Of a stretch of 64,000 nucleotides of DNA, positions 3,999-52,046 are shown piece by piece. The notes beneath the pieces are model-generated. The model ran no database searches. It saw only the letters and a program-made list of their open reading frames with translations, and was not told where the DNA came from. The DNA is from a virus: positions 1-64,000 of the IMG/VR virus record IMGVR_UViG_3300044530_000622. One strand, written 5' to 3'. Within the stretch, counting starts at the first letter, position 1. Every line of letters begins with the position of its first letter. Made by a program: the position numbers and the translations under genes.

Positions 3999-4136
3999 AT
4001 GCAAAAAATAGACATTAATTCAGCTTATGAAGCTGAAATTAAGAAAGTATTAGATGCTATTTGGGAAAATCGTTTTCGAATAAACTTGAATAATTTAGAA
4101 AAATTACGTAAATTAGCTAACAAAACAAAATTATGA
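3999..4136 (+). CDS. Small helical protein upstream of queC, 45 aa
   Basis: ATG 3999 follows the previous stop by 3 bases and the stop TGA 4134-4136 overlaps the queC start (ATGA), so the two are translationally coupled. The sequence is one long amphipathic helix (EAEIKKVLDAIWENRF). Unknown function. Confidence 0.5.
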   Translation: MQKIDINSAYEAEIKKVLDAIWENRFRINLNNLEKLRKLANKTKL

Positions 4137-4951
4137 ATAAACAAGCAGTGCTTAGCTTATCCGGGGGGATGGATTCCTCAACACTGTTACTACGTCTACT
4201 TGCCGATGGCTACGAAGTTACAGCACTATCCTTTGACTACGGTCAGAAACATAAAGTTGAACTCGAAAGAGCAAAAGCTCTAGTTCAATATTTAAATCAC
4301 CAAGTAACCCCCTTAGGGTATCCAGTAATCAGATATCAAGTAATTAAGCTTGACGGTTTAGCTCAATTGCTTAACTCTACTCTAGTTACAGGCGGTGCTG
4401 ATGTTCCTGAAGGGCATTATGCTGAAGAGAATATGAAAGCAACCGTTGTTCCGAATAGGAATAAAATCTTCAGTTCAATCATTCAAGCAGTTGCATTATC
4501 AGTTTCAGAACAGAAGAATACTAAATGCGTTATTGCAATGGGAATCCATTCTGGCGATCATGCTATTTATCCAGACTGCCGGGAAGAATTTAGGGATGCA
4601 GACTTTGAAGCATTTAAATCAGGTAACTGGGGTGCAGATAAAGTAAGCCTTTATACTCCCTATCTAAAGTCAACCAAGTTTGGAATCTTGAGAGATGGAG
4701 AGAAGTGCTGCGATAAAATGCATATTGACTTTGATTCTGTTTATGAAAAGACTAACACCTCTTATAAGCCAATCCAGATCAACGGTAGGTGGTACTCTGA
4801 TTACAAGTCAGCATCCTCAGTAGAGAGAGTAGAAGCATTCATTAAACTACAAAGAAAAGATCCAGTTCAATACGCTGACGAAGGCGGACCGGTAACTTGG
4901 GAGCAAGTAGTTGAACATGTTAAAAACGTTTTGAGTAAGCATGAAGGATAA
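4133..4951 (+). CDS. queC: QueC, 7-cyano-7-deazaguanine (preQ0) synthase
   Basis: Converts 7-carboxy-7-deazaguanine to preQ0 using ATP and ammonia. The PP-loop is intact (SGGMDS, residues 10-15), followed by the family blocks SFDYGQKH and VVPNRNKIF and a motif resembling AIYPDCREEF. Length 272 aa, about 40 longer than E. coli QueC. Odd point: the C-terminal zinc knuckle that normally carries four Cys is replaced (TSYKPI, then YSDYKSASSVERVEAF), so no metal-binding cysteines remain there. It sits apart from queD/queE (5.5-7.4 kb) and folE/queF (39.6-43.1 kb) but completes the same pathway. Confidence 0.88.
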   Translation: MNKQAVLSLSGGMDSSTLLLRLLADGYEVTALSFDYGQKHKVELERAKALVQYLNHQVTPLGYPVIRYQVIKLDGLAQLLNSTLVTGGADVPEGHYAEENMKATVVPNRNKIFSSIIQAVALSVSEQKNTKCVIAMGIHSGDHAIYPDCREEFRDADFEAFKSGNWGADKVSLYTPYLKSTKFGILRDGEKCCDKMHIDFDSVYEKTNTSYKPIQINGRWYSDYKSASSVERVEAFIKLQRKDPVQYADEGGPVTWEQVVEHVKNVLSKHEG

Positions 4952-5111
4952 GTATTACCTAATAGTAAATAAAGACGGAGAAGCTTATGCCGGTATGGTA
5001 CAAGGCTCTCTGATCTGGACTCACAACTGGGCTGCAGGAAAAGCTCTACACAAAGAAAATACATCACGAGTATTAGTATCAAACCCAGGAACAGAATTAT
5101 TAGAACTATGA
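4941..5111 (+). CDS. Small hypothetical protein, 56 aa
   Basis: ATG 4941 lies inside the end of queC and its stop overlaps the next ATG. Beta-rich sequence (KYYLIVNKDGEAYAGMVQG). No recognised domain. The overlaps on both sides are the main support. Confidence 0.5.
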   Translation: MKDKYYLIVNKDGEAYAGMVQGSLIWTHNWAAGKALHKENTSRVLVSNPGTELLEL

Positions 5112-5263
5112 ACCAACCAGACCCTAAACTACACCAGCTGGTAAGCTTTTTAAAATCAGCTGTTAGAATCTCCGGCTACGTTGCTCTATTCTGGAGCATC
5201 AGCCTTGGAGCATTTATTTTAATCTTATCAGAATTAATAGGTATTATAGAAGAATTAGTATGA
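5108..5263 (+). CDS. Single-span membrane protein, 51 aa
   Basis: An N-terminal soluble helix of about 20 residues is followed by a hydrophobic segment (GYVALFWSISLGAFILIL) and an acidic end. It overlaps both neighbours by 4 bases (ATGA) and precedes the thioredoxin gene. Function unknown. Confidence 0.5.
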   Translation: MNQPDPKLHQLVSFLKSAVRISGYVALFWSISLGAFILILSELIGIIEELV

Positions 5264-5508
5264 AGAAAATTTTATATTTTAGTGCACCTTGGTGCGGTCC
5301 TTGTAAGCAATTCGGACCAGTAATGGAACAGATGGGACAATCAATCCCAGTACAAAAAATTAATGTTGACGATCAACCTGACCTAGCTACTGCTTACTCA
5401 GTACGTAATGTACCTACAGTAATCATTGTTAAGGACGGTGAAGTAGTTAACAGAATGGTTGGAGTTCAAACTCCGACAGCAGTTATGAACGCATACAATA
5501 ATGCTTAA
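5260..5508 (+). CDS. Thioredoxin-like protein
   Basis: 82 aa with the redox motif WCGPC at residues 11-15 and the cis-proline segment VRNVPTVII. It lacks the first strand and helix of standard thioredoxin (about 105 aa), a common phage/glutaredoxin-sized version. It would reduce disulfides, for example in a phage or host nucleotide-metabolism enzyme; no ribonucleotide reductase is in this window to confirm the partner. Last gene of the run that starts at 3354. Confidence 0.85.
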   Translation: MKKILYFSAPWCGPCKQFGPVMEQMGQSIPVQKINVDDQPDLATAYSVRNVPTVIIVKDGEVVNRMVGVQTPTAVMNAYNNA

Positions 5509-5511
5509 GGC

Positions 5512-5542
5512 TTGCTTATATTAAATAAAGTTCATATATTAA
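5512..5542 (+). promoter_or_regulatory. Promoter for queD
   Basis: TTG 5512, 20-base spacer, TATATTAA 5535-5542; the ATG follows after 3 bases, so the mRNA would be leaderless or nearly so. Confidence 0.55.
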
Positions 5543-5545
5543 GTT

Positions 5546-6010
5546 ATGGGAAAATATCAATCAACAAAAGTATTTGACGGATTCAGCTGCGTATTCCGTC
5601 AATGGAAAGCAGAGGGAACTCATTGTAAGTACGTTCATGGATACGGAGTATCTTTTAAAGTATGGTTTGAAGGAGAGTTAGACGAAAAGAACTGGGTATG
5701 GGATTTCGGAGGAATGAAGAGAGCTAAAGGAACTATCGACGGAATGAATCCAAAAGCATGGATGGACTATATGTTCGATCATACTATGATTATTGCCGAA
5801 GATGATCCGTTCCTTGAATCATTTAAGTTAATGGATCGAGCAGGAGCAGCTCAAGTAAGAATCCTACCCGCAGTAGGAGCAGAGAAATTTGCTGAGCATA
5901 TCTTTAATAAGCTTCAGGAATTTATTCATACAGAGACAGAAGGCAGAGTGAGAGTAGTTCGAGTAGACTTTATGGAACATGGACGCAATTCAGCAATTTA
6001 CGAAGGATAA
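5546..6010 (+). CDS. queD: QueD-like 6-carboxytetrahydropterin synthase
   Basis: Makes 6-carboxy-5,6,7,8-tetrahydropterin from dihydroneopterin triphosphate, the step between FolE and QueE. Visible family marks: FSCVFRQW, then THCKYVHGYG (catalytic Cys with a His-Gly motif), WDFGGMK, MFDHTMII and, near the C-terminus, VRVDFMEHG. The usual HGH zinc pair reads HGY here, with an extra His before the Cys (THC), so metal ligation may be rearranged. 154 aa versus about 120 in E. coli. It starts a promoter-driven unit continuing to queE, now interrupted by an HNH gene. Confidence 0.8.
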   Translation: MGKYQSTKVFDGFSCVFRQWKAEGTHCKYVHGYGVSFKVWFEGELDEKNWVWDFGGMKRAKGTIDGMNPKAWMDYMFDHTMIIAEDDPFLESFKLMDRAGAAQVRILPAVGAEKFAEHIFNKLQEFIHTETEGRVRVVRVDFMEHGRNSAIYEG

Positions 6011-6012
6011 TT

Positions 6013-6036
6013 ATGACAGTAGAAATTAAAATCTAG
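6013..6036 (+). pseudogene. Remnant of the queE 5' end
   Basis: Directly after queD, ATG 6013 opens a 7-codon frame (MTVEIKI, then TAG). It matches the real queE start at 6648 (MSIEIKK): the two 20-base stretches differ at only a few positions. This is what would remain if the HNH gene had inserted into, and partly duplicated, the queE start. Confidence 0.55.
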
Positions 6037-6065
6037 TGTGACCCTTAGTAAATTATTTTTACTAC

Positions 6066-6074
6066 TATTTATAA
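6066..6074 (+). promoter_or_regulatory. TATTTATAA motif (late-type) before the HNH gene
   Basis: TATTTATAA at 6066-6074 lies 3 bases before ATG 6078, the same geometry as before the virion-type genes at 11012, 56668 and 62038. Confidence 0.4.
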
Positions 6075-6077
6075 TAA

Positions 6078-6617
6078 ATGGACTATCAAAAAATTTATTA
6101 TCAATTAGTACTGAAAGCTAAGACTAGAGAAGAAATAAGTGGGTATTTTGAAACACATCATATAATACCTAGATGCTTACACGGAACTAATAATCCAGAT
6201 AACCTCGTAAAGCTTACAGCTAAAGAGCATTTCTTAGCCCACTTACTTCTTACTGAAATTTACCCAACAAATCAAAAACTGAAATACGCTCTGTGGATGA
6301 TGGCAACAATGGAAGCAAGCAACCAAAGTAGGTACAGAGTTTCTGCAAAAACATACCAGAGAATAAAAGAAAGCTTAAATAAAAAAACAGAAGAGCATAA
6401 AAAGAAAATCTCAGAAAGTCTAAAAAAAGCTTACGCAGAAGGTTCTCGAGGAACAAACAAAGGTAAAAAAATGCCAGTTGAAGTAGGTAGGAGAATATCA
6501 GAAGCTAAAAAAGGCATGGTCGGTACTAATTTAGGTAAGCTAATGTCTGAAGAGCAAAAGAAAAAAATCTCAGAAACATTAAAGAGAAAGAACCAAAATA
6601 AAAAGTTGGATCTATAA
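6078..6617 (+). CDS. HNH homing endonuclease with NUMOD3-like repeats
   Basis: 179 aa. Residues 25-58 carry the HNH core (ETHHIIPRCLHG, then NLVKLTAKEHFLAH). The lysine-rich C-terminus repeats a DNA-binding module of the NUMOD3 type (HKKKISESLKKAYAEG; GRRISEAKKGM; QKKKISETLKRK). Such free-standing endonucleases cut uninvaded relatives near their insertion point. It separates queD from queE and is preceded by a duplicated queE start, consistent with a mobile insertion. AAA-rich codons set it apart slightly. Confidence 0.85.
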   Translation: MDYQKIYYQLVLKAKTREEISGYFETHHIIPRCLHGTNNPDNLVKLTAKEHFLAHLLLTEIYPTNQKLKYALWMMATMEASNQSRYRVSAKTYQRIKESLNKKTEEHKKKISESLKKAYAEGSRGTNKGKKMPVEVGRRISEAKKGMVGTNLGKLMSEEQKKKISETLKRKNQNKKLDL

Positions 6618-6636
6618 TAAAAAATAACTATATTAA
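6606..6636 (+). promoter_or_regulatory. Promoter for queE
   Basis: TTG 6606 (inside the end of the HNH gene), 20 bases, TATATTAA 6629-6636, ATG at 6648. It restores independent expression of queE after the insertion. Confidence 0.55.
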
Positions 6637-6647
6637 TAAAAAATATT

Positions 6648-7439
6648 ATGTCAATAGAAATTAAAAAACCAGGTCGTATTTTAGATTACAACAAAAAATT
6701 ACCCATCATCGAACTTTATACTTGCATCCAGTCTGAAGGTTCAAGGCAGGGAAGACCTACCGTTGCTATCAGAACAACCGGATGTACTCACAGATGTTGG
6801 TTTGGCGAAGGCGGATGGTGTGATAGTTGGTATAGCAGTATACACCCTGAGAAAGGGCATATTACATTTAACGACATCATTAAAATTTATGATGAGAATC
6901 CAACCATTACTGAAATGATGTTGACTGGAGGTTCACCTACCATGCAGCCAGATCTATGTAATGAATTAACGCATTTTGCTAATCAAAGAGGAATATTTAT
7001 AACTATTGAAACAGAAGGTTCTCATTTTGTCGAGACGGATTATCCAATTGGTCTTATTTCCCTATCACCTAAGTTTAGTAATAGTGTGCCTAAGCTTGAT
7101 GTTACTACTCCAATGGGTAAACTGGTCGACCAGAAGATGATCGATCAGCATAATAAGCTACGTTTAAATGATGATGCAATTGAGAAGACCCTTGCATACC
7201 ATTCGGACTACCATTACAAACCAGTGTATGACGGTACTGAAGAAACAATGAATGAGATTGAAGAATTTAGAGTAAAGCACAACATCCCTAAGAATAAAAC
7301 CTGGTTGATGCCTGCTGGTGATAACAGAGAGGAATTGATCAAGCAGTATCCAATCTCATTAGAAAAAGCATTCGACATGGGCTACAATTGGACAGGAAGG
7401 GATCACATAATAAGCTGGGACACTAAGCGAGCAGTATAA
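6648..7439 (+). CDS. queE: QueE, 7-carboxy-7-deazaguanine synthase (radical SAM)
   Basis: Radical-SAM enzyme that rearranges 6-carboxytetrahydropterin to 7-carboxy-7-deazaguanine. Residues 21-42 resemble the family N-terminus (IELYTCIQSEGSRQGRP). The 4Fe-4S cysteines are C46, C50 and C58 (TGCTHRCWFGEGGWCDSW), spaced CX3CX7C rather than the textbook CX3CX2C, as in other expanded QueE loops. The SAM-binding motif LTGGSPTMQ follows at 92-100. 263 aa. Ends overlap the next ATG. Confidence 0.88.
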   Translation: MSIEIKKPGRILDYNKKLPIIELYTCIQSEGSRQGRPTVAIRTTGCTHRCWFGEGGWCDSWYSSIHPEKGHITFNDIIKIYDENPTITEMMLTGGSPTMQPDLCNELTHFANQRGIFITIETEGSHFVETDYPIGLISLSPKFSNSVPKLDVTTPMGKLVDQKMIDQHNKLRLNDDAIEKTLAYHSDYHYKPVYDGTEETMNEIEEFRVKHNIPKNKTWLMPAGDNREELIKQYPISLEKAFDMGYNWTGRDHIISWDTKRAV

Positions 7440-11925: not shown

Positions 11926-14262
11926 ATGGTTGTCGAAAAAAAGTATTACCTTGTCAATAGCAAAGAGCTAGTTGATCTCCTTATCCAGCATATTAACGAG
12001 AAAGAGATTCTTGCTTATGATACAGAAACAGACTCTTTAAATACTCGCAAAGGAAGGATTATTGGTTTTTCTGTTTCGGGTGAAGAAGGAATGGGCTTTT
12101 ATATGCCGACTATGTTTTGGAATAACGAAACTCAAACTCTTGACGAGTGTCAGATTGAAAGCATTGGCTGTCATCGAATAGCAAAGAAGATTATTTCGAT
12201 GCTGGTTGGAAAGAAACTTGTTATGCATAATGCTTCTTTTGACTGCCGTTATACAGATAACTTCTACAAAGTCAACTTGCTACCTTCACTTTGGGTTGAT
12301 ACTGCTTTACTAGTTCACACGGTAAAAGAAGAAGGAGCATTCGGGTATGGAGCAAGTCCTTTCGGACTAAAATCAATCGCCATTATGATTCAAGATAAGA
12401 TCGGTTTGAATGTTGAAGAAGCAGCTAACCAAGAACAGATCAACCTTAAGAACTCAATTAAGGAGAATGGCGGTTCAGTTACTAAAGATAACTTTGAGAT
12501 TTACAAAGCAGATATTAACCTGTTGAGTGAATATGCTGCTGCGGATACGGATCTTACTTTGCGTATTTGTAATCACTTTCTACCGGTTCTCGAGCATGAA
12601 GGACTAACTAAGTTCTTCTTTGAAGACGAAGTAATGCCCCTTTATAGAGAGGTTACTATACCAATGGAAATCGAAGGGATAGCCCTTGATATACCTTTGA
12701 TAGAACAAACTAGAGATGCTATCTTAACTGACCAGGAGAAGTATCGCCGGGCAGTAATTGAAGAACTACTTAAGCTACAAAAAGTTAAAGAATGGATTAT
12801 CGATTCAGCATTAACTGAATTCCCTCCAGGTCATAAAGGAACTTGGGCTTGTACGTTGGTTGATATGTATAAGCTCCCTATACCTAAAAACTCGAGAAAC
12901 TATTCTTTAAAGCAGGCTAACATCCTTATACTAGAGGATAGTCCGGTAAAAGATTATTTGCTTTCTGGAGATTTAGATTGCTTAACTGAAGAAGTTGTTA
13001 CTAAAGTTTCTATGAAGCTTTGGAAAGACTTTAACGACGGGGAGTGGTTAAATATTCAATCAAAGAAGCAGTTAGGTGATATCGCTTTTAACTACTTGAA
13101 AGAGAAGCCGTTATCTAAAACGACTAAAGGCCAAGCTCAATTCGATGATGATATGATTCAAGCTTTATCAGACAAATACGAATGGTGTAGGAACTTACGT
13201 ATCTATAATAAGCTCCTAAAGATTAAGTCAACCTACGTGGATCGATTTTACGATCAAGCAGAGGATGGACGTTTCTTCCCTTATTTTAAACAGAACGGAA
13301 CTGTGTCAGGCAGATACGGATCTGACCTTCAGCAGTTACCTAAGCCTAAAGAAGATGGAGAAGCAGATCCAATCATCGTTAAATACAATAACGAGATCAG
13401 AGCATTCTTTACAACAGACCCTGGTTACTTGTTGATTGATAATGACTTCGAGTCTTTAGAGCCTCACATTTTCGCTTCCATATCTAATGACGAAGCCATG
13501 CAAGAGATCTTTAGTCAAGGTCATGATTTCTATTCAACGGTTGCTATCCGAACCGAAAAGCTTGACGAACAAAGAGATAAGTACCCCGACGGAGTATCAG
13601 CTGATAAAAAGGCTCCTAACTTCCTTAAGAAGCTTGATGCACCTAAACGAAATCAAGCAAAGGGTTATTCGTTAGGAGTTGCTTACGGAATGTCTCCTTA
13701 CGCACTTGCAATGTCCTTAGGAGTACCTCAAGAAGAAGGAAAGAGGCTTCACGAAGGTTATATGAAAGGGTTCCCGGGAGTTGCTGAATGGATTGACAAT
13801 TCAAGAGCATTGTTTAAAAGAGATGGCTTTATTAAAAACCAAGTAGGTCGAATCCGACACCTTGATAGAGGTAAAGCGGTTTATGATTCTTTTGGAGAAA
13901 GGATTATGGATTGGAAGTTTAGAAATGATCTTACTAAAGAGATTGGAGGAGATAATGTAAAGAGACTCTACGGAGATTATAAGAATGCTTTGAATAACTG
14001 CTTAAACTTTCAAATTCAATCTTTAGCAGCATCAGTGGTTAATCGAGCAGCTTTAGCCATTAATAGGGAGTTTAAGAGAAGAGACTGGGACGGTATCGTT
14101 ATTGCCCAGATTCATGACCAATTGATCATTAAGATTAGAGAAGACTTAGTTCATGAAGCAGCTGAAGTAGTTAAGCATGTTATGGAAACCACTACCCAGC
14201 TACCAGGGGTAACCTTAAAGGCACCACCGGAAATAGCAAAGAATTTTAGGGATGGTCACTAA
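11926..14262 (+). CDS. polA: DNA polymerase I-type replicative polymerase (family A)
   Basis: 778 aa. Residues 1-230 are a DnaQ-like 3'-5' proofreading domain (YDTETDSL with D32/E34; HNASFDCRYTD; YAAADTDLT). The polymerase domain follows: NGTVSGRYGSDLQQLP, motif A DNDFESLEPHIFASIS, finger helix KRNQAKGYSLGVAYG and motif C QIHDQLII. No 5'-3' exonuclease domain. Motif C reads HDQ: catalytic Asp731 is kept but the next residue, normally Glu, is Gln732. It is the only DNA polymerase in the window. Confidence 0.93.
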   Translation: MVVEKKYYLVNSKELVDLLIQHINEKEILAYDTETDSLNTRKGRIIGFSVSGEEGMGFYMPTMFWNNETQTLDECQIESIGCHRIAKKIISMLVGKKLVMHNASFDCRYTDNFYKVNLLPSLWVDTALLVHTVKEEGAFGYGASPFGLKSIAIMIQDKIGLNVEEAANQEQINLKNSIKENGGSVTKDNFEIYKADINLLSEYAAADTDLTLRICNHFLPVLEHEGLTKFFFEDEVMPLYREVTIPMEIEGIALDIPLIEQTRDAILTDQEKYRRAVIEELLKLQKVKEWIIDSALTEFPPGHKGTWACTLVDMYKLPIPKNSRNYSLKQANILILEDSPVKDYLLSGDLDCLTEEVVTKVSMKLWKDFNDGEWLNIQSKKQLGDIAFNYLKEKPLSKTTKGQAQFDDDMIQALSDKYEWCRNLRIYNKLLKIKSTYVDRFYDQAEDGRFFPYFKQNGTVSGRYGSDLQQLPKPKEDGEADPIIVKYNNEIRAFFTTDPGYLLIDNDFESLEPHIFASISNDEAMQEIFSQGHDFYSTVAIRTEKLDEQRDKYPDGVSADKKAPNFLKKLDAPKRNQAKGYSLGVAYGMSPYALAMSLGVPQEEGKRLHEGYMKGFPGVAEWIDNSRALFKRDGFIKNQVGRIRHLDRGKAVYDSFGERIMDWKFRNDLTKEIGGDNVKRLYGDYKNALNNCLNFQIQSLAASVVNRAALAINREFKRRDWDGIVIAQIHDQLIIKIREDLVHEAAEVVKHVMETTTQLPGVTLKAPPEIAKNFRDGH

Positions 14263-36556: not shown

Positions 36557-36814
36557 ATGACAGTACAGTGTATTAAATGTAAAGAAGCAATCCCGGAAGG
36601 TCGATTGAAAGCACTTCCAAGTGCTACAACATGCGTTAGTTGTTCATCATCTAAGATGAAAAGATCTATCACAATAACAAAAGGAGAGGGTGAAGATACT
36701 TTCAACGACTTAGTTATCATGGAAGCAGATCAGTATGACCAAGTCTTTGGAAAGAAAAATCAATCAACATCAAACTTTCGGGATGATGAATTGATAGACA
36801 ATGACCAAGATTAA
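36557..36814 (+). CDS. DksA/TraR-type zinc-finger protein, 85 aa
   Basis: The four-cysteine finger CIKCKEAIPEGRLKALP...CVSCSSSK (residues 5-32) is the DksA/TraR C4 finger. DksA-like proteins enter the RNA polymerase secondary channel; phage versions can redirect transcription. The long coiled-coil arm of DksA is missing, so it may act by other contacts. Overlaps the next gene by 14 bases. Confidence 0.72.
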   Translation: MTVQCIKCKEAIPEGRLKALPSATTCVSCSSSKMKRSITITKGEGEDTFNDLVIMEADQYDQVFGKKNQSTSNFRDDELIDNDQD

Positions 36815-37433
36815 GTTTCTATCTAAGGATATGGTCTTATCGGCGATGAGCCGAACTAGATCTAACCGAGCAGCTGCCCGGTATCTTTCAGTATCTTTTG
36901 TGCATTATAAAAAATATGCTAAACAATACAAGGATGAAGCACTAGGAATATCTCTATGGGAAAAGCATAAAAACCAATCCGGTACAGGCATTCCAAAGTT
37001 CTTAACAGGTAAATCAGATGAACCATCTTTATTGGATATCGTAGAAGGTAATGCATCACCGCATTCCTTTACACCGGCAAAGATAAAAGATCGAATGATC
37101 ACTGAAGGTTACCTACTAGAGGAATGTTACAATTGCCATTTTAGTGAGAGGAGAGTCCTTGATTACAAAATGCCTCTCCTTATGCACTTTAAGGATGGTA
37201 ATAAAAAGAACTACCGAGCAGAAAACTTAGACCTACTTTGCTACAATTGCTTCTTCTTAACAGTAGGAGACGTATTTGAAAATAAACAAATACAAGGACT
37301 TGAAGATCACGTAACTATTTATAAGCAGGAAGAACCTAGCTGGGAACTTGACGAATACCAACTTCAGAGATTAAAAGAGTTGGGATTGACAGATGAAGAA
37401 CCGAAGCAGGATGATTTCATCAGCCGCTTATGA
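36801..37433 (+). CDS. HTH-HNH endonuclease-like protein, 210 aa
   Basis: N-terminal helix-turn-helix-like region (LSAMSRTRSNRAAARYLSVS), then a treble-clef HNH candidate: CYNCHF near residue 110 and LLMHFKDGNKKNYRAENLDL followed by CYNCFF (two CxxC pairs). Could be a free-standing endonuclease or a DNA-binding component of packaging. A metal-dependent role is likely; precise job unknown. Confidence 0.65.
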   Translation: MTKIKFLSKDMVLSAMSRTRSNRAAARYLSVSFVHYKKYAKQYKDEALGISLWEKHKNQSGTGIPKFLTGKSDEPSLLDIVEGNASPHSFTPAKIKDRMITEGYLLEECYNCHFSERRVLDYKMPLLMHFKDGNKKNYRAENLDLLCYNCFFLTVGDVFENKQIQGLEDHVTIYKQEEPSWELDEYQLQRLKELGLTDEEPKQDDFISRL

Positions 37434-39642: not shown

Positions 39643-40320
39643 ATGGATTTAAAAGAATTTTCAGACGGTCTTGAATTAGCGAGCATGGGCTTTGCTAACG
39701 GCAAGGCACCCGGTTATCCGTTCACCGAAAAAGAGAAATGGAAGATGGTTGATAAGGCAGCAGATGCTTACGGAAAGTTTCTAGATGCATTAGGTTGTGA
39801 TTGGAAGAATGATCCTAACTCTTCTGATACTCCTCGCAGGGTAGCAAAAGCATACGTATTCGATTTATGGAAAGGACGTTACGATATGATGGATAACGTT
39901 ACTGCATTTCCTTCAGATGGATACGACGGAATGGTATTTGAAGGCAATATTCCAATTACCTCTATGTGTTCTCATCATCACCAAACAATCCAAGGCCGGG
40001 TTCATATCGGTTACATTCCTTCTCCAGAAGGTAAGGTTGTCGGTTTATCAAAGCTAAATAGGATTGTTGAATACTTCGGAAGAAGAGGAACAATCCAAGA
40101 ACAATATACAGTTGCAGTCCATAACGCAGTGAATAAGATTTGTGAAGGTAATCAGGGAGTAGCTGTAATGGTCGAAGCAACCCACAATTGCGTATCTTGC
40201 AGAGGAGTAAAGCATGCAGGAGCTTCTATGAAAACTTCAAAGTTATCAGGATGCTTCATGATGGAAGATTCAGCAAGAGCAGAGTTTTACGAATTCGTTA
40301 AAGGATATAGCTGCAAGTAA
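39643..40320 (+). CDS. folE: GTP cyclohydrolase I (FolE)
   Basis: Opens GTP to dihydroneopterin triphosphate, the first step of preQ0 synthesis and of folate. 225 aa, the normal length. Zinc ligands: MCSHHHQ (Cys109 and following His) and HNCVSCRGVKHAG (second Cys); GLSKLNRIVEYFGRR is the signature block. First gene of the dpd unit, sharing one base with the transglycosylase. Confidence 0.93.
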   Translation: MDLKEFSDGLELASMGFANGKAPGYPFTEKEKWKMVDKAADAYGKFLDALGCDWKNDPNSSDTPRRVAKAYVFDLWKGRYDMMDNVTAFPSDGYDGMVFEGNIPITSMCSHHHQTIQGRVHIGYIPSPEGKVVGLSKLNRIVEYFGRRGTIQEQYTVAVHNAVNKICEGNQGVAVMVEATHNCVSCRGVKHAGASMKTSKLSGCFMMEDSARAEFYEFVKGYSCK

Positions 40321-41111
40321 TGATTAAGATAGCGCACGAATCTCCTATCGATTTATTCTCTTACGTTCAAACTAAGACTGATTACGATTACTGCTTAGTT
40401 CATTTGTTAGAGGAGAGTGAAGCCTATAAAGAAGCCTTTGTTGAAGCCTGTAAAGAACGAGAAGTTATTTTAGATAATTCAATCTTTGAATTAGGAGAGG
40501 CTTTTGATATGAAGAAGTTCTTCGAATGGAATAATAAGCTTGAGCCTACCTGGTACATCATCCCAGATGCTTTAGAGGATGCAAAGACAACAATCTTTAA
40601 TGCTTACGTATGGAATCAGTTTCATAGACCAACCGCTAAGGGTAAAAGTATTGCAGTAGTTCAAGGAAAGACTTATGAGGAGATCGTGGAATGCTATCAG
40701 ACTTTAGATGACAAGCTGGATGTTGATATGATTGCAATCTCTTTTGATTATTCTCTCTATGAAAAAATAGTTCCTAATCCGAACAAGCTTGTAAGCTGGA
40801 TGCTAGGAAGAGTTGCTTTGCTAGGCAGATTAGAGAAGGACGGTATTATTAATAAGCAAAAGCCTCACCACTTACTCGGTTGTGCATTACCTCAAGAAGG
40901 TCAGTTCTACAAAGGATATGATTGGATTTACTCAATGGATACTTCTAACCCAGTAGTACATGCTATTAAAGGAATTCCTTATCCTCACTCCGGGCTTAAG
41001 ACAAAAGAGTCTCAGAAGCTATTTGAATTAATTAACTACCCGGCAGACCAAATCAGCAAGCATAACTTAGATTGGAATATTGACGTCTTTAAAGCATGGT
41101 GGAATGGGTAA
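40320..41111 (+). CDS. dpdA: DpdA-like DNA 7-deazaguanine transglycosylase
   Basis: 263 aa, predicted TIM-barrel related to tRNA-guanine transglycosylase: VILDNSIFELGEAF, IIPDALEDAKTT, VVQGKTYEEIVECY, HHLLGCALPQEGQFY and WIYSMDTSNPVVHA, with acidic residues at positions expected for base exchange (Asp52 and the Asp of SMDTSNP). No TGT zinc motif, as in viral DpdA. It would swap guanine in DNA for preQ1 or a related base. Subfamily not decidable by eye. Encoded between folE and the formyltransferase. Confidence 0.8.
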   Translation: MIKIAHESPIDLFSYVQTKTDYDYCLVHLLEESEAYKEAFVEACKEREVILDNSIFELGEAFDMKKFFEWNNKLEPTWYIIPDALEDAKTTIFNAYVWNQFHRPTAKGKSIAVVQGKTYEEIVECYQTLDDKLDVDMIAISFDYSLYEKIVPNPNKLVSWMLGRVALLGRLEKDGIINKQKPHHLLGCALPQEGQFYKGYDWIYSMDTSNPVVHAIKGIPYPHSGLKTKESQKLFELINYPADQISKHNLDWNIDVFKAWWNG

Positions 41112-41649
41112 GTGGATTGCATTCTTCTCTCAGACTGGCAACGAGATTGCTGAAGTAAGTAATCATTTAGATCGATGGCCTGATGTTATTATTACCAATG
41201 AAAGACCGGCCCGGTTAAGGAAAATAAACCAAGAGGTGCTCTCTAAAAATATTATAACATTACCGAACCAACCAACCGTAGAAGACTACCGTAGCGTCTT
41301 AGCAGAAGCAATCGGTATTGATACATACGTGATCACCTTACATGGATGGTTAAGAGTAATACCTACAGAAGTGATTGAAGAGTATTCAACTATCTACAAT
41401 GGACATCCTGGTTTGATCACTAAATACCCTGAACTGAAAGGAAAAGATCCTCAGATGAAAGCCTGGAATCTAGATTTGAGTAGTTCCGGCTGTGTAATTC
41501 ATCAAGTAACAGCAGGAGTGGATGATGGTCCGGTAGTTAGATCTCAGCAGATAAGCATCAGGAACCTTACAATGGATGAAATGTTTCAGAAGCTGCATAA
41601 CATCTCAGTCGATATGTGGGTAAACTTTCTTAAAAGACATTGGCTTTAA
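41104..41649 (+). CDS. dpdN: PurN-fold formyltransferase, candidate dPreQ1 formyltransferase (DpdN)
   Basis: 181 aa from ATG 41104. Formyltransferase core with a complete Asn-His-Asp set: YNGHPGLITKYPEL (Asn99, His101), and VIHQVTAGVDDGPVV (Asp140). The family uses 10-formyl-tetrahydrofolate. Coupled to the DpdA-like gene and located next to queF, it matches the predicted enzyme that formylates preQ1 in DNA. The alternative, a sugar N-formyltransferase for the glycan cluster, is less likely from position. Confidence 0.75.
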   Translation: MGKWIAFFSQTGNEIAEVSNHLDRWPDVIITNERPARLRKINQEVLSKNIITLPNQPTVEDYRSVLAEAIGIDTYVITLHGWLRVIPTEVIEEYSTIYNGHPGLITKYPELKGKDPQMKAWNLDLSSSGCVIHQVTAGVDDGPVVRSQQISIRNLTMDEMFQKLHNISVDMWVNFLKRHWL

Positions 41650-41671
41650 TCAAATTAACTTCGTATATTAA
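41640..41671 (+). promoter_or_regulatory. Promoter for 41677
   Basis: TTG 41640, 21 bases, TATATTAA 41664-41671, ATG 41677. Confidence 0.5.
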
Positions 41672-41676
41672 TACTA

Positions 41677-42213
41677 ATGAGAATATCATTTACAGGAGCT
41701 CAATCAACAGGTAAGACTACTCTACTAGAAGCAATTAAGCAGAACGAGGAGTTCAGGTACAAATACGAATTCATCGACGAGATTACCCGCCGGATGGTTA
41801 AGAAGGGTTTGAAGATAAACGAAGCAGGAGGTAATACTACCCAGCTTCTAATTATGAATGAGCATATTAAGAATACTCTGTATACTGATGCTATTATGGA
41901 TAGATGTGTCATCGACGGAGTAGTTTATACTCATTGGTTATACCAGCAAGGTAGTGTTGAGAAGTGGGTATGGGAATACTCTATGAACGTATTCAATCAT
42001 TACAAGGATCGCTATGATTATATCTTCTATCTAAAGCCTGAATTCGATATCGTAGACGATGGAACCAGGAGCACTAATACTCAATTCAGAGATGATATAG
42101 TAGACTTATTTGAACGATACATTAAGCATATAAAAGTTCCTGTAGTATACCTAACAGGATCAGTAGAAGAAAGATTAGAAAAATTTTATACAACAATAAA
42201 GAATCATGGATAA
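41677..42213 (+). CDS. P-loop kinase/AAA_28-like protein (NadR-kinase-like)
   Basis: 178 aa. Walker A ISFTGAQSTGKTTLLEAI at the very start, VIDGVVYTHWLY (LID/acceptor region) and IFYLKPEFDIVDDGTRST, resembling the ribosylnicotinamide-kinase type. Inserted between the formyltransferase and queF. Substrate not readable; a nucleotide or deazapurine nucleoside is conceivable. Confidence 0.7.
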   Translation: MRISFTGAQSTGKTTLLEAIKQNEEFRYKYEFIDEITRRMVKKGLKINEAGGNTTQLLIMNEHIKNTLYTDAIMDRCVIDGVVYTHWLYQQGSVEKWVWEYSMNVFNHYKDRYDYIFYLKPEFDIVDDGTRSTNTQFRDDIVDLFERYIKHIKVPVVYLTGSVEERLEKFYTTIKNHG

Positions 42214-43129
42214 TAATCAAAATACAGTAATTGAAATTGCCGGCAAACACCTTGGTAAGGTAGGCGGTGAGGGTTACAAGTCAACGTATGCTCCTGAGCT
42301 TCTCGTTGCAGTACCTCGCTACTACAACCGAGAGAGTTACAGCATTAAAGAAGGTGACCTACCCTTTGTAGGCGGTGATGTTTGGAATGCTTATGAAGTA
42401 TCAGCAATCACAGAGAATGGACGTCCGGTAAACGGAATGATGAAGATCTACTGTCCGGCAGATAGTCCTGCTCACGTAGAGTCTAAGTCAATCAAGCTTT
42501 ACTTGAACTCCTTTAACATGACCCGTTTGGGTTCTACAGCACACGAATGTGTTAACTTAGTTGAGCAGATGGTCACTAAAGATCTATCTAAACTATTACA
42601 GACAGAAGTTGAAGTTAAGTTCTTTACGAACGAGTTTACTCCTGAGGTAGAGTTTGGAACAGATTACATACACCTTGACCAGGCAGTTAATTTAGACGAA
42701 GAAACTTTCGATACATTCCATTCAGATGCTAGTCAGTTGCAATCAATGGAAGTAGCTCCTAATGAGGTAGCAGTTACGACTAAGATAACTTCAAACCTTT
42801 TGAGAAGTAACTGTAGGGTAACCAACCAACCAGACTGGGGTGATGTTTATATCGAGATTGAGACTACCGGAACAAATGCTCCTGATTTCAAATCGTTAGC
42901 AAAGTACATCGTATCTCATAGAGAGGTGTCTCATTTCCACGAAGAGATTTGTGAGATGATGTTTATGCATTTAACAGAAGCTTATCAACCTTCTCGTTTG
43001 ATGGTAGCTTGTTTGTATACCCGTAGAGGAGGATTGGATATTAATCCTATCAGAGCAACTCATACAGATATGATCCCAACAATGTTCACAGATGTAAATT
43101 ACAGAAACAAAAAAACACTTAGACAATAA
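42206..43129 (+). CDS. queF: QueF, preQ0 reductase (NADPH-dependent)
   Basis: Reduces the nitrile of preQ0 to the aminomethyl group of preQ1. 307 aa, bimodular long form. N-terminal half: VWNAYEVSAI and the NADPH motif ESKSIKLYLNSFN. C-terminal half: catalytic LRSNCRVTNQPDWG (Cys203, with the following Asp), HFHEEICEMMF (His-Glu) and YTRRGGLDINPIRA. All catalytic residues are present. Its product is the base that DpdN would formylate. Confidence 0.92.
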   Translation: MDNNQNTVIEIAGKHLGKVGGEGYKSTYAPELLVAVPRYYNRESYSIKEGDLPFVGGDVWNAYEVSAITENGRPVNGMMKIYCPADSPAHVESKSIKLYLNSFNMTRLGSTAHECVNLVEQMVTKDLSKLLQTEVEVKFFTNEFTPEVEFGTDYIHLDQAVNLDEETFDTFHSDASQLQSMEVAPNEVAVTTKITSNLLRSNCRVTNQPDWGDVYIEIETTGTNAPDFKSLAKYIVSHREVSHFHEEICEMMFMHLTEAYQPSRLMVACLYTRRGGLDINPIRATHTDMIPTMFTDVNYRNKKTLRQ

Positions 43130-43550: not shown

Positions 43551-43574
43551 GGGGCCTACGGGCCCCATTCTTTT
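43551..43574 (+). terminator. Intrinsic terminator
   Basis: GGGGCC-TACG-GGCCCC followed by ATTCTTTT. A second hairpin (CCCC-ACAC-GGGG, 43518-43529) precedes it. Ends the dpd/queF unit before the sigma-factor promoter. Confidence 0.8.
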
Positions 43575-43576
43575 AG

Positions 43577-43607
43577 TTGTTTAGTTGAAATATGATTCGT
43601 ATATTAA
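43577..43607 (+). promoter_or_regulatory. Promoter for the ECF sigma gene
   Basis: TTG 43577, 20 bases, TATATTAA 43600-43607, ATG 43612. Confidence 0.6.
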
Positions 43608-43611
43608 GTAG

Positions 43612-44148
43612 ATGGAACAGGAACAGGTAGATACGGTTAAGCTAGCTCAAGAACTTAAAGCAGGTTCAGAGAGTGCTAAAGCACTTCTCTATACTAGGTA
43701 TAAGGCATACTTTTCAAAACTAGCATACAAGTATGTCAATAATGTAGATGATACAGATGATGTAGTCTGTGATAGCTTTGTAAGAATCTTTAGGTATATT
43801 GGACAACTAAAGGATGATAATTACTTAGTAGCATGGTGTGGTAGAGTGGTAATAACCACAGCACTTAATCATATAAAGAAGAGAAAGTATGAGCAATATC
43901 AGAAAGATGTAACCGTAGTAAATCCAGGAAGATGTAATGATACTCATTCACCTATGGACTTACAGGTGGTTATGAAATGTATAGATAATTTAGCACCGGG
44001 ATATAAAAGAGTGATTGAAATGTTCTGTATTGAAGGACTATCTGGACCAGAGATAGCAAAGGAATTAAATGTAGGGCATGTAACTGTCCGATCACAATTG
44101 TATAAAGCAAGAAAGGTATTAAAGAAAGCTATGAGACATGAATATTGA
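43612..44148 (+). CDS. ECF-type RNA polymerase sigma factor
   Basis: 178 aa with sigma region 2 (YKAYFSKLAYKYVNNVDD, DSFVRIFRYI, WCGRVVITTALNHIKKRK) and region 4 helix-turn-helix (APGYKRVIEMFCIEGLSG and NVGHVTVRSQLYKARKVL). It would direct host RNA polymerase to a subset of phage promoters. It sits immediately before the AACCGTA array and the many-promoter region. An ECF sigma beside a separate gp55-like sigma (58453) means two phage sigma factors. Confidence 0.88.
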   Translation: MEQEQVDTVKLAQELKAGSESAKALLYTRYKAYFSKLAYKYVNNVDDTDDVVCDSFVRIFRYIGQLKDDNYLVAWCGRVVITTALNHIKKRKYEQYQKDVTVVNPGRCNDTHSPMDLQVVMKCIDNLAPGYKRVIEMFCIEGLSGPEIAKELNVGHVTVRSQLYKARKVLKKAMRHEY

Positions 44149-44197: not shown

Positions 44198-44371
44198 AAC
44201 CGTATAGAAAATCGTAGAAGAGTCAACCGTAGGATAGTATGGTAGAGGTAACCGTAAGATAGGTAACCGTAGGAACTAGACAACCGTAGTGAGTAAACCG
44301 TATAGGGAACTGTAAAGAAAACCGTAAGGAGTCAACCGTAGTGTTAGACGACCGTAGCTTATTAAACCGTA
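44198..44371 (+). repeat. AACCGTA iteron-like array, 12 copies
   Basis: Twelve heptamers in the same orientation start at 44198, 44210 (AATCGTA), 44225, 44250, 44265, 44282, 44296, 44308 (AACTGTA), 44320, 44334, 44350 (GACCGTA) and 44365. Nine are exact. Spacing is 12-25 bases, mostly 12-17, with AG-rich spacers. No coding frame fits. Likely multiple binding sites for one protein: replication initiator, repressor or the nearby sigma. Confidence 0.75.
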
Positions 44372-44566
44372 GAGTATACTATAGATAAGTATAGACGTAT
44401 GGTAAGACTATAAGACAATGAGAAAACATAATATAAAGGGTAAGGGTGATATGGGAAGTGTGTAATGAAAAGTAATGTGTGTTAACTAGTAGTGGGTATA
44501 ACATGGTACTATATAAAAGAATGGTAATGGTGTGTAGAAAATAGACAAGGGAAGAGTGGAGAGTAT

Positions 44567-44875
44567 TTAGGAGAGTTTACCGGCATGTGTACCGCTCCGG
44601 TCGATTTCGCAAGACTCGCCGGTCGATCGACTCGAGGTACCGCCCCGGGCATGGGGGGAGACCTGCAGGAACAGTGGGGGGTAAGGGGAGACCCGCCGCA
44701 GGCGGGACATGGGGGGGGGGGAGGTCTGGGAAAAGAAACCGCTGGGGAAGACTTGGGGATGTGGTTCTAGGGGGAGTGGTAAGGTACCACTGAAAGTACC
44801 ACTTATTCCAGGGCCCAAACTACGTCTGATTTCTTCAACCCCTTTGGAGCCGCCCTTCGTACTATCTTCCGACAT
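44567..44875 (-). CDS. Possible leaderless minus-strand protein, 102 aa
   Basis: On the minus strand the ATG at 44875 directly follows a full promoter (TTCGTATCTTTAGG), and the frame starts MSEDSTKGGSKGVEEIRRS. The rest is Pro/Ser/Gly-rich because it reads the G-rich island. The start geometry is convincing, but the sibling repeat at 46330 loses the frame within 14 codons, so an RNA product is as likely. Confidence 0.35.
   Translation of the reverse strand: MSEDSTKGGSKGVEEIRRSLGPGISGTFSGTLPLPLEPHPQVFPSGFFSQTSPPPMSRLRRVSPYPPLFLQVSPHARGGTSSRSTGESCEIDRSGTHAGKLS
44577..44816 (+). other. G-rich, GC-rich island
   Basis: A sudden composition change in an AT-rich genome: repeated G runs (six at 44652 and about 44676, eleven at 44711-44721), pairs of direct repeats such as GTACCACT, and several palindromic six-mers (CTCGAG, GGTACC, CCCGGG, CTGCAG). 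On the + strand it is non-coding; a minus-strand frame runs through it. Could form quadruplexes in unmodified DNA. Confidence 0.6.
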
Positions 44876-44889
44876 CCTAAAGATACGAA
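44820..44889 (-). repeat. Divergent-promoter repeat, copy 1
   Basis: About 65 bases matching 46330-46407: shared CTACGTCTGATTTCTTCA, CGCCCTTCGTACT and CCGACATCCTAAAGATACG in the same order. Read on the minus strand it starts with a promoter and ATGTCGGAA. Confidence 0.75.
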
Positions 44890-44908
44890 CATTAGTTCAG
44901 GGGACAAA
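44878..44908 (-). promoter_or_regulatory. Minus-strand promoter 1
   Basis: On the minus strand: TTTG (complement of CAAA 44905-44908), 19 bases, TATCTTTA (complement of 44878-44885), GG, then ATG. It points toward the G-rich island, the array and, antisense, the ECF sigma gene. Confidence 0.6.
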
Positions 44909-45087
44909 CACTTTTTTTTATTTTTACCATATTTATTAATGTAGTCTACAGAGACATTGACGTTACATAAGGAAACGAGCTTAGGGCACATAATAAAATA
45001 ACAATCAAAAGCTTCTAGAACCTACAGAAACACTATAGTGGCCACAAAAAATGCTTTGGATGGTCGTTATTTTTTTTTGTCTAAAGG

Positions 45088-45142: not shown

Positions 45143-45931
45143 ATGAAAAACACATTTTTAACCACAGAGCAGATCGCCATTATGGCCCCTGCAGTTCTCG
45201 AGACTGGTGTCTCTTCAAAAGTATCTTCAAAGTATGTTCACGTACCCACTATCGATTTAATCGGTGATATGGCTACGATGGGATGGAATGTTGTTGATGC
45301 AAAGCAAAGAAAGACTCGCAAAGATGAAGCGGGTGGAAGCTTTAGTAAGCACATGGTTGTATTCAGAAACGACGATGTAGTTATTAAGAGTGAGGATGGA
45401 GAGGTTGTTTACCCTCAGATCCTATTGAGTAACTCTCACGATGGTCTTTCTTCATTCCAGTTCAGAGCCGGTTTGTTCAGATTGATTTGTTCTAATGGGT
45501 TGGTTATTGCAACCAAAGATTTCGGTTCTATGACCATCCGTCATAAGGGCTATTCTTTTGAGGAGTTAAAGAAGACGGTTATGGGGTTGGTTGAAACCTT
45601 ACCGGTGACTGTTGAGACCTTGAATAAATTTAGAGAGGTTACTTTGACTGAGGATCAGAAGGTTGAGATGGCTTTAGCTGCTTTGGGTATTAGATTTGGA
45701 GAAGGTGGAGCTGAGGTTACGGCTGAGGAAATTCTTAAGCCTGTTCGTTCTGAGGATGAAGGGAATGATCTTTGGACAGTCTTTAATGTGATTCAAGAGA
45801 AGATGGTTCGTGGTGGTTTTAAATACAAAGCCTCTACCGGCCGAAATAAGACGGCTAGGTCTATCAAGAACTTCAATAGAGATATTGAATTGAATGAGAA
45901 GCTTTACGAGCTTGCAGAATCGTTCATTTAA
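45143..45931 (+). CDS. DUF932-type protein, 262 aa
   Basis: From ATG 45143, placed by the leader ACAGTT. DUF932 hallmarks: VPTIDLIGDMATMGW, HMVVFRNDDVV, EVVYPQILLSNSHDGLSSFQ, AGLFRLICSNGLV. This plasmid/phage family is abundant in mobile elements and has no settled function, though nucleic-acid association has been suggested. Own promoter and own terminator make it a single-gene unit. Confidence 0.8.
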   Translation: MKNTFLTTEQIAIMAPAVLETGVSSKVSSKYVHVPTIDLIGDMATMGWNVVDAKQRKTRKDEAGGSFSKHMVVFRNDDVVIKSEDGEVVYPQILLSNSHDGLSSFQFRAGLFRLICSNGLVIATKDFGSMTIRHKGYSFEELKKTVMGLVETLPVTVETLNKFREVTLTEDQKVEMALAALGIRFGEGGAEVTAEEILKPVRSEDEGNDLWTVFNVIQEKMVRGGFKYKASTGRNKTARSIKNFNRDIELNEKLYELAESFI

Positions 45932-46329: not shown

Positions 46330-46407
46330 GAACAGCCTACGTCTGATTTCTTCAGGTTTTTACCCCGCCCTTCGTACTCCATCTTTCCGACATCCTAAAG
46401 ATACGAA
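46330..46407 (-). repeat. Divergent-promoter repeat, copy 2
   Basis: Second copy of the 44820 repeat, about 1.5 kb away. Minus-strand reading from ATG 46393 gives only a 13-residue peptide (MSERWSTKGGVKT, stop at 46352). Sequence beyond the stop is conserved, pointing to a functional RNA or DNA element rather than a conserved protein. Confidence 0.7.
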
Positions 46408-46426
46408 AAACAATTTTAATTTCCAA
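46396..46426 (-). promoter_or_regulatory. Minus-strand promoter 2
   Basis: Complement of CAA 46424-46426 gives TTG, exactly 20 bases, then TATCTTTA (complement of 46396-46403). Fires toward the terminator of the 46032 gene. Confidence 0.6.
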
Positions 46427-51761: not shown

Positions 51762-52046
51762 ATGAACATTCAAACATTATCTTACAAAGAACTAGTAGCA
51801 GAAGCTACTACCAAAGGTCTCCAGAAGGCTAGTCAAACCAAGAAGGAAGACTTGATCAAATTCTTAACCGGGCTAACAGCTCAGAAGAGAGAGAAGAAGC
51901 CGGTTGATCCTCGCATCGTTGAGATGGCAGATGGGTCTTTGACCACCAGAGAGATTGCTAAGGAGCTTGGAGTGAAGTACTCAGATGTTTATTTTGCTTT
52001 GAAGAAGGCAGGTCTAACAGCAAAGCCAGTAAAGAAAAAGAATTAA
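51762..52046 (+). CDS. SAP-like and HTH protein, 94 aa
   Basis: Residues 5-34 resemble a SAP DNA-binding helix pair (LSYKELVAEATTKGL, TKKEDLIKFL). Residues 50-80 form a helix-turn-helix (MADGSLTTREIAKELGVKYS, DVYFALKKAGL), and the tail is basic (KPVKKKN). A DNA-binding regulator is likely; the AACCGTA array or the shared promoters are possible targets. Confidence 0.68.
   Translation: MNIQTLSYKELVAEATTKGLQKASQTKKEDLIKFLTGLTAQKREKKPVDPRIVEMADGSLTTREIAKELGVKYSDVYFALKKAGLTAKPVKKKN

Follow-up and report, generated by a model that had tools for sequence, protein, structure and literature searches.

A cluster of short direct repeats in a large T4-like phage is a feature of its phage family, conserved at an equivalent place in related genomes and not tied to the ECF-type sigma factor gene that stands beside it in the phage analysed here. 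The cluster lies within a 64,000-nucleotide stretch (the window) of an IMG/VR virus record and, together with the linker that adjoins it, may form an iteron-like region for the initiation of replication; we place this origin activity, deduced from sequence, somewhat below an even chance. The features around the array in the window are the following.

43551-43566, plus strand: terminator-like hairpin, separating the preceding gene from the ECF gene.
43590-43611, plus strand: promoter-like TTCGTATATTAAG, directly before the ECF start.
43612-44148, plus strand: gene for an ECF-type sigma factor of 178 aa (PF08281, E 5.9e-12; PF04542, E 1.5e-6).
44198-44371, plus strand: array of AGnnAACCGTA (core AACCGTA), 12 direct copies at a spacing of 12-17 with one of 25, kept in relatives.
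44372-44565, plus strand: linker, C-poor and G-rich on this strand, adjoining the 3' side of the array.
44566-44800, no strand assigned: GC-rich block, occupying the place of the relatives' second sub-array.
44819-44890, minus strand: putative promoter TTCGTATCTTTAGG, then a conserved short TACGAAGGGCGG...TTGAAGARATCAGACGTAG, pointing back at the array.
44891-45085, no strand assigned: AT-rich non-coding block, strongly conserved with locus L164 (about 12160-12370).
45143-45931, plus strand: DUF932 gene (PF06067, E 2.7e-27), at a distance of 0.8-3.5 kb to the array in every lineage compared.

The original prediction of a twelve-copy, one-direction AACCGTA array without coding sequence was confirmed, with 9 of 12 copies exact and three carrying one mismatch, far above shuffled sequence. 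Copies start at 44198, 44210 (AATCGTA), 44225, 44250, 44265, 44282, 44296, 44308 (AACTGTA), 44320, 44334, 44350 (GACCGTA) and 44365, all 12 on the plus strand, and the gap holds no reversed copy. The predicted spacing of mostly 12-17 bases was likewise borne out, a single gap of 25 excepted (in order: 12, 15, 25, 15, 17, 14, 12, 12, 14, 16 and 15). Within a 302-nt stretch, 9 exact copies and 12 with at most one mismatch were counted, against maxima of 2 and 6 in 300 dinucleotide-preserving shuffles, and across the whole window the exact word occurs 18 times against 4.45 expected, a number reached in 0 of 100 shuffles. No plus-strand open reading frame of at least 45 codons covers the array. 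Moreover, AG stands at positions -4/-3 of the heptamer in 11-12 of the 12 window copies, so that the repeat unit is 11 nt long, AGnnAACCGTA; in a 166-kb genome that contains the region (G001), the exact unit is found eight times inside the array and only twice elsewhere.

The window belongs to a 115-kb virus record which matches 115 kb of the IMG/VR contig G001 at 99.997% identity; the two (G000 and G001) are not independent, and metagenomic contigs may be incomplete. This is a large T4-like phage, whose gene content includes baseplate and queuosine-type genes, a DNA polymerase, GroEL and a late-sigma-like protein, and it is kin of the cultured Flavobacterium phage immuto (160 kb, complete), which was reached via the DUF932 protein; blastn of the array region against cultured phages gave no match. 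From this relative and from promoter-like TATnTTTAGG sites, the host is probably a member of the Bacteroidota. Genes for QueC-like, QueE-like, FolE, DpdA-like and QueF proteins lie at 4133-7439 and 39643-43129 of the window, and immuto is annotated with the identical set; with these queuosine/7-deazaguanine genes, the phage DNA probably carries a modified guanine. Two further observations on sequence composition were made: gp128 of immuto (MW353175, about 68330-68686) has a coding strand nearly free of C (150 nt with 0 C, 300 nt with 1% C), and multiple diverged internal repeats, in pieces of 80-330 bp that are 74-89% identical, lie at 146000-159000 of G001, in the final 13 kb that it shares with the record of the window and beyond the 64 kb of the window itself.

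Using DUF932 as an anchor, 23 loci were gathered. Arrays were present near this gene in L162, L163, L164, L165-169, L171 and L173-178, whose DUF932 proteins are 42-78% identical to that of the window, and the array is kept even where the nearby DUF932 is just 38-45% identical and the array-flanking genes differ. In the near relative L003/L161 the array is one unit shorter, the ECF gene has 92.7% DNA identity and the linker 99.0%, and about a dozen more metagenomic contigs share the arrangement of immuto. Loss of the array from close relatives with the same gene order had been named as the observation that would count against it, and the array was present in those relatives. DUF932 loci without a visible array (L170, L172, L179-L182) say little, since most end a few hundred bases from DUF932 or are very distant. 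In the whole or nearly whole genomes scanned there is one array locus per genome, always on the coding strand and in a gene-free gap. Furthermore, the word differs between lineages in all copies together, being AACCGTA, AACCGT[A/C], AACCGTC (L171) or, in the immuto group, ACCCGTT. The array gap of immuto is its largest ORF-free gap (678 bp) and contains two ACCCGTT sub-arrays in 12-nt steps (spacings 12, 12, 12, 12, 12 and 11); the arrays overall are spaced mostly 11-17, with modes at 12 and 14. A search for three AACCGTA in a row gave 120 matches among viral contigs, most of them repeats within coding sequence whose spacings are multiples of 3, and only irregular non-coding matches were taken further. 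Bacterial and archaeal genomes gave 91 matches, mostly in cyanobacterial and other chromosomes; the few irregular clusters among them have 7- or 19-nt steps and look unrelated.

Two sub-arrays around a linker are present in most lineages, among them the immuto-type and L162/L163-type phages. Strongly conserved blocks mark the linker of the immuto group, and the part of it that runs from GGAGAGACATAG to a pyrimidine-rich box ending in CTATA measures 220-223 bp in all distinct sequences but one (L223, 210). L162, L163, G003 and L175 again have, less and less clearly, a purine-rich sequence, a GTGTGTAG-like box and a pyrimidine box; a tighter scan with the linker pattern gave no match. The window retains the first sub-array and the C-poor linker, with the GC-rich block at the place of the second sub-array; judged by sequence, its linker is a possible counterpart of that between the relatives' sub-arrays. 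It holds the 150 bp with the lowest C content and the highest GC skew in the whole of G001, and the highest-skew 150 bp of G003 also lies at the array of that genome. In GC content the GC-rich block surpasses every other 200 bp of the genome (64.5% against 36.6%), and its RNA folding is not unusual.

The position of the array next to the ECF gene had suggested a control hub, a proposal that the relatives do not support. In a search of 13 records with PF08281 (sigma region 4), an ECF-type sigma was found only in G000, G001 and the contig of L164, together with a weak, sub-cut-off match to an HTH protein at 51933; the remaining array-bearing records that were searched gave none, among them the complete genome of immuto (160 kb) and the 173-kb contig G003, which has an AACCGTA array. 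Directly upstream of the array, the window has the ECF sigma gene, and so does L164, though with a short intervening stretch; L162/L163 have a gene for an unrelated 171-aa protein there, and the lines of G003 and L171 one for a different small protein. A function in which AAC and CGTA of adjacent copies serve as -35 and -10 elements, or in which the array titrates the sigma, would suit this adjacency in the window and L164 and some of the neighbour spacings (14-17), but many spacings (11-13) are unsuitable for an ECF promoter, the array persists without any ECF sigma, and the word has changed in the immuto group, where the ECF gene is absent. We regard such a hub as scarcely credible, and as a general function an ECF promoter or decoy is contradicted by the arrays that lack the gene.

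Around the array of the window, a transcript from the promoter-like TTCGTATATTAAG would cross the ECF gene and then the array; no terminator-like site was found between the two, so that the ECF transcript probably reads through. On the minus strand, the element at 44819-44890 can be followed as TTCGTATCTTTAGG, then TGTCGGAA...TACGAAGGGCGG...GAAGARATCAGACGTAG; it has a second copy in the window (about 46336-46410, minus strand) and is also found in L162 near 7265, L163 near 5040 and L164 near 12133. Since its nucleotides are kept despite differing reading frames, it may be a small RNA gene facing the array. The core of the neighbouring AT-rich block (AACGAGCTTAGGGCACATAA) occurs in only three IMG/VR contigs, every one from the lineage of the window phage, and RNA folding of this block (44891-45085) is not unusual. 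Further downstream, between 45000 and 52000, many early promoter-like sites have an ATG a few bases past TATnTTTAGG (e.g., CGTATCTTTAGGTATGGG), which suggests very short leaders or leaderless messages.

The statement that such arrays mark replication origins, partition sites or multi-site operators fits in its first part, given one locus per genome, conservation across the family and a concerted change of the word; multi-site operators are expected at more than one locus, and a partition site is unlikely because the phage is apparently virulent and immuto has no annotated partition gene. Many copies at a single locus that change their word together point to a trans-acting reader evolving with the array, and a replication start is a plausible unique cis-element in a virulent T4-like phage, for which reason the origin reading is favoured. 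The restriction to the coding strand, the linker of fixed length, the retention of the array in distant lineages, the exceptional size of the ORF-free gap in immuto and the skew extremes at the arrays of G001 and G003 were also counted in its favour. So was the annotation of the complete immuto genome, which includes a phage polymerase, SSB, a RecA-type recombinase, a DnaB helicase and a DnaG primase, and neither an initiator gene nor a partition gene. In the mechanism that we propose, a phage-encoded sequence-specific factor would bind the AGnnAACCGTA copies as an array, and a read-through transcript of the preceding early gene would cross the purine-rich stretch adjoining it. This stretch might then open or hold an RNA:DNA hybrid (a putative R-loop) at which the phage DnaB-type helicase, primase and polymerase could be loaded, so that array and linker would be the start of early DNA replication.

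Other results count against an origin or are neutral towards it. No initiator was recognised beside the array, where neighbours vary by lineage; those array-flanking genes that were scanned with Pfam and PHROGs gave no match to a Rep family, and candidate reader proteins among the early genes gave no informative family matches. A conserved HNH-type protein (36801-37433; gp107 in immuto) is encoded in the same gene cluster, and nothing ties it to the array. The array is far from the polymerase and helicase genes, and its 11-17 spacing is not helically phased, unlike that of plasmid iterons. In G001 and G003 the 60 bp of lowest stability lie directly beside the array, and a DNA unwinding element looked promising by percentile, but the low-melting stretch is unexceptional, since random windows of its length do as well in 28% of cases in G001, 7% in G003 and 68% in immuto, and this candidate was set aside. 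In G003 and immuto, but not in G001, GC skew at four-fold sites reaches its extremes no further than about 8 kb from the array, and neither GC nor AT skew at these sites has a clean switch at the array.

Among the alternatives to an origin, a long non-coding RNA has to be weighed, in which the array-linker-array transcript would bind many copies of one protein at its AACCGUA/ACCCGUU sites, as a decoy or scaffold, with hairpins in the linker. We consider this rather unlikely. It agrees with the placement of all copies on the coding strand in every lineage and with the lack of terminator-like sites between the ECF gene and the array. In ten immuto-group linkers, a proposed set of helices had 8 pairs with changes in both partners, where shuffles gave 2.2 (0 of 500) and sliding at most 5, an excess that leans to RNA and away from an origin, although the helices were drawn from the very alignment in which the changes were counted, much of the change comes from one divergent sequence (L278), and the covariation term of RNAalifold was about zero (0.05). 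A covariance model of the linker gave strong matches in the immuto group only, and weak ones (E 0.4-6) in five other lineages, where they occupy corresponding positions, exactly in the linkers of L171, L162/L163, L164, L173/L175 and the window/L161; a sequence-only model ranks a different window site higher, so purine-rich composition may explain part of these weak matches. The arrays themselves fold no better than shuffles and often worse (z mostly above 0), by which a structured RNA at the array was rejected, and Rfam gave no match at gathering or permissive thresholds. It is an unlikely proposition that array-linker-array is a new kind of phage non-coding RNA, which this T4-like family would encode at a single place in each genome, bordering the early region, and which would serve as scaffold or decoy for one protein, with tens of near-identical sites rewritten together in each lineage and a hairpin-bearing linker of fixed length.

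Control of the early-gene island just downstream, by a multi-site operator or enhancer, would explain why the array lies at the edge of this promoter-rich island in all lineages. However, other promoters in the genome do not carry the word, the next promoter lies anywhere between tens and several hundred bases from the array, and an operator would need neither a second sub-array nor a linker of fixed length, which leaves it distinctly improbable. Repeated short words also occur in some pac and centromere-like sites, but a role in packaging or partition is very doubtful; in immuto more than 50 kb separate the array from the gene for the large terminase and the annotation includes no partition gene, and the relatives resemble virulent T4-like phages, whose DNA is packaged by headful. 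Expansion of a repeat without function could account for the whole-unit difference in copy number between the window and L161; the irregular spacing is unlike slippage, the heptamer is kept while the spacers diverge, and place and strand are conserved across distant phages, so this reading is disfavoured and has very little probability.

Compared with known systems, the array is iteron-cluster-like and yet is not filed under any known family. It shares with the iterons of T4 oriE short direct repeats about 12 nt apart, in one cluster, one orientation and a syntenic place of a T4-like genome. T4 oriE lies in the region of gene 5 (baseplate hub) with repEA/repEB, whereas the array of the window is in an early region beside DUF932 and not among baseplate genes; arrays of this type are also non-coding, built of an 11-nt unit and, in most lineages, divided into two sub-arrays; their linker is conserved, and no gene resembling repEA/repEB was recognised. 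In T4 (AF158101, 79402-79569; L398, 7403-7570), the GTTGAAGGTAAT-like direct repeats found around oriE have a 24-nt period and lie inside the gene 5 coding sequence, so that protein coding is a confounder when their conservation is read as that of replication iterons. As for the R-loop origins oriF and oriG of T4, which have no repeat array, the region likewise offers a non-coding stretch close to an early promoter, strand-asymmetric and probably transcribed, that could hold an RNA:DNA hybrid. Plasmid-type iterons are tandem repeats of about 17-22 bp or more in helical register. Direct repeats within a non-coding region are shared with these and with the satellite PLE of phage ICP1, but the units here are 11-nt and asymmetric, spaced 11-17 nt and without a recognised initiator gene adjacent. 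The iterons of PLE are three semi-palindromic repeats of about 30 bp served by the initiator RepA (RepA_N), the specificity of which co-varies with the repeats (PMC8263062; PMC7145576). Large phage-borne non-coding RNAs, such as the Rfam families GOLLD and ROOL, likewise come from long non-coding stretches of phage genomes from water, but the array of the window has neither an Rfam match nor strong folding.

How T4-like phages choose their origins and what part the oriE iterons play in T4 are open questions (PMC3016281). Being non-coding, the array described here is free of the confounding between repeats and protein sequence, and since it occurs once per genome, with lineage-specific words and with a cultured carrier in immuto (Flavobacterium LMO8), it makes the question of the origin directly testable in this phage family.
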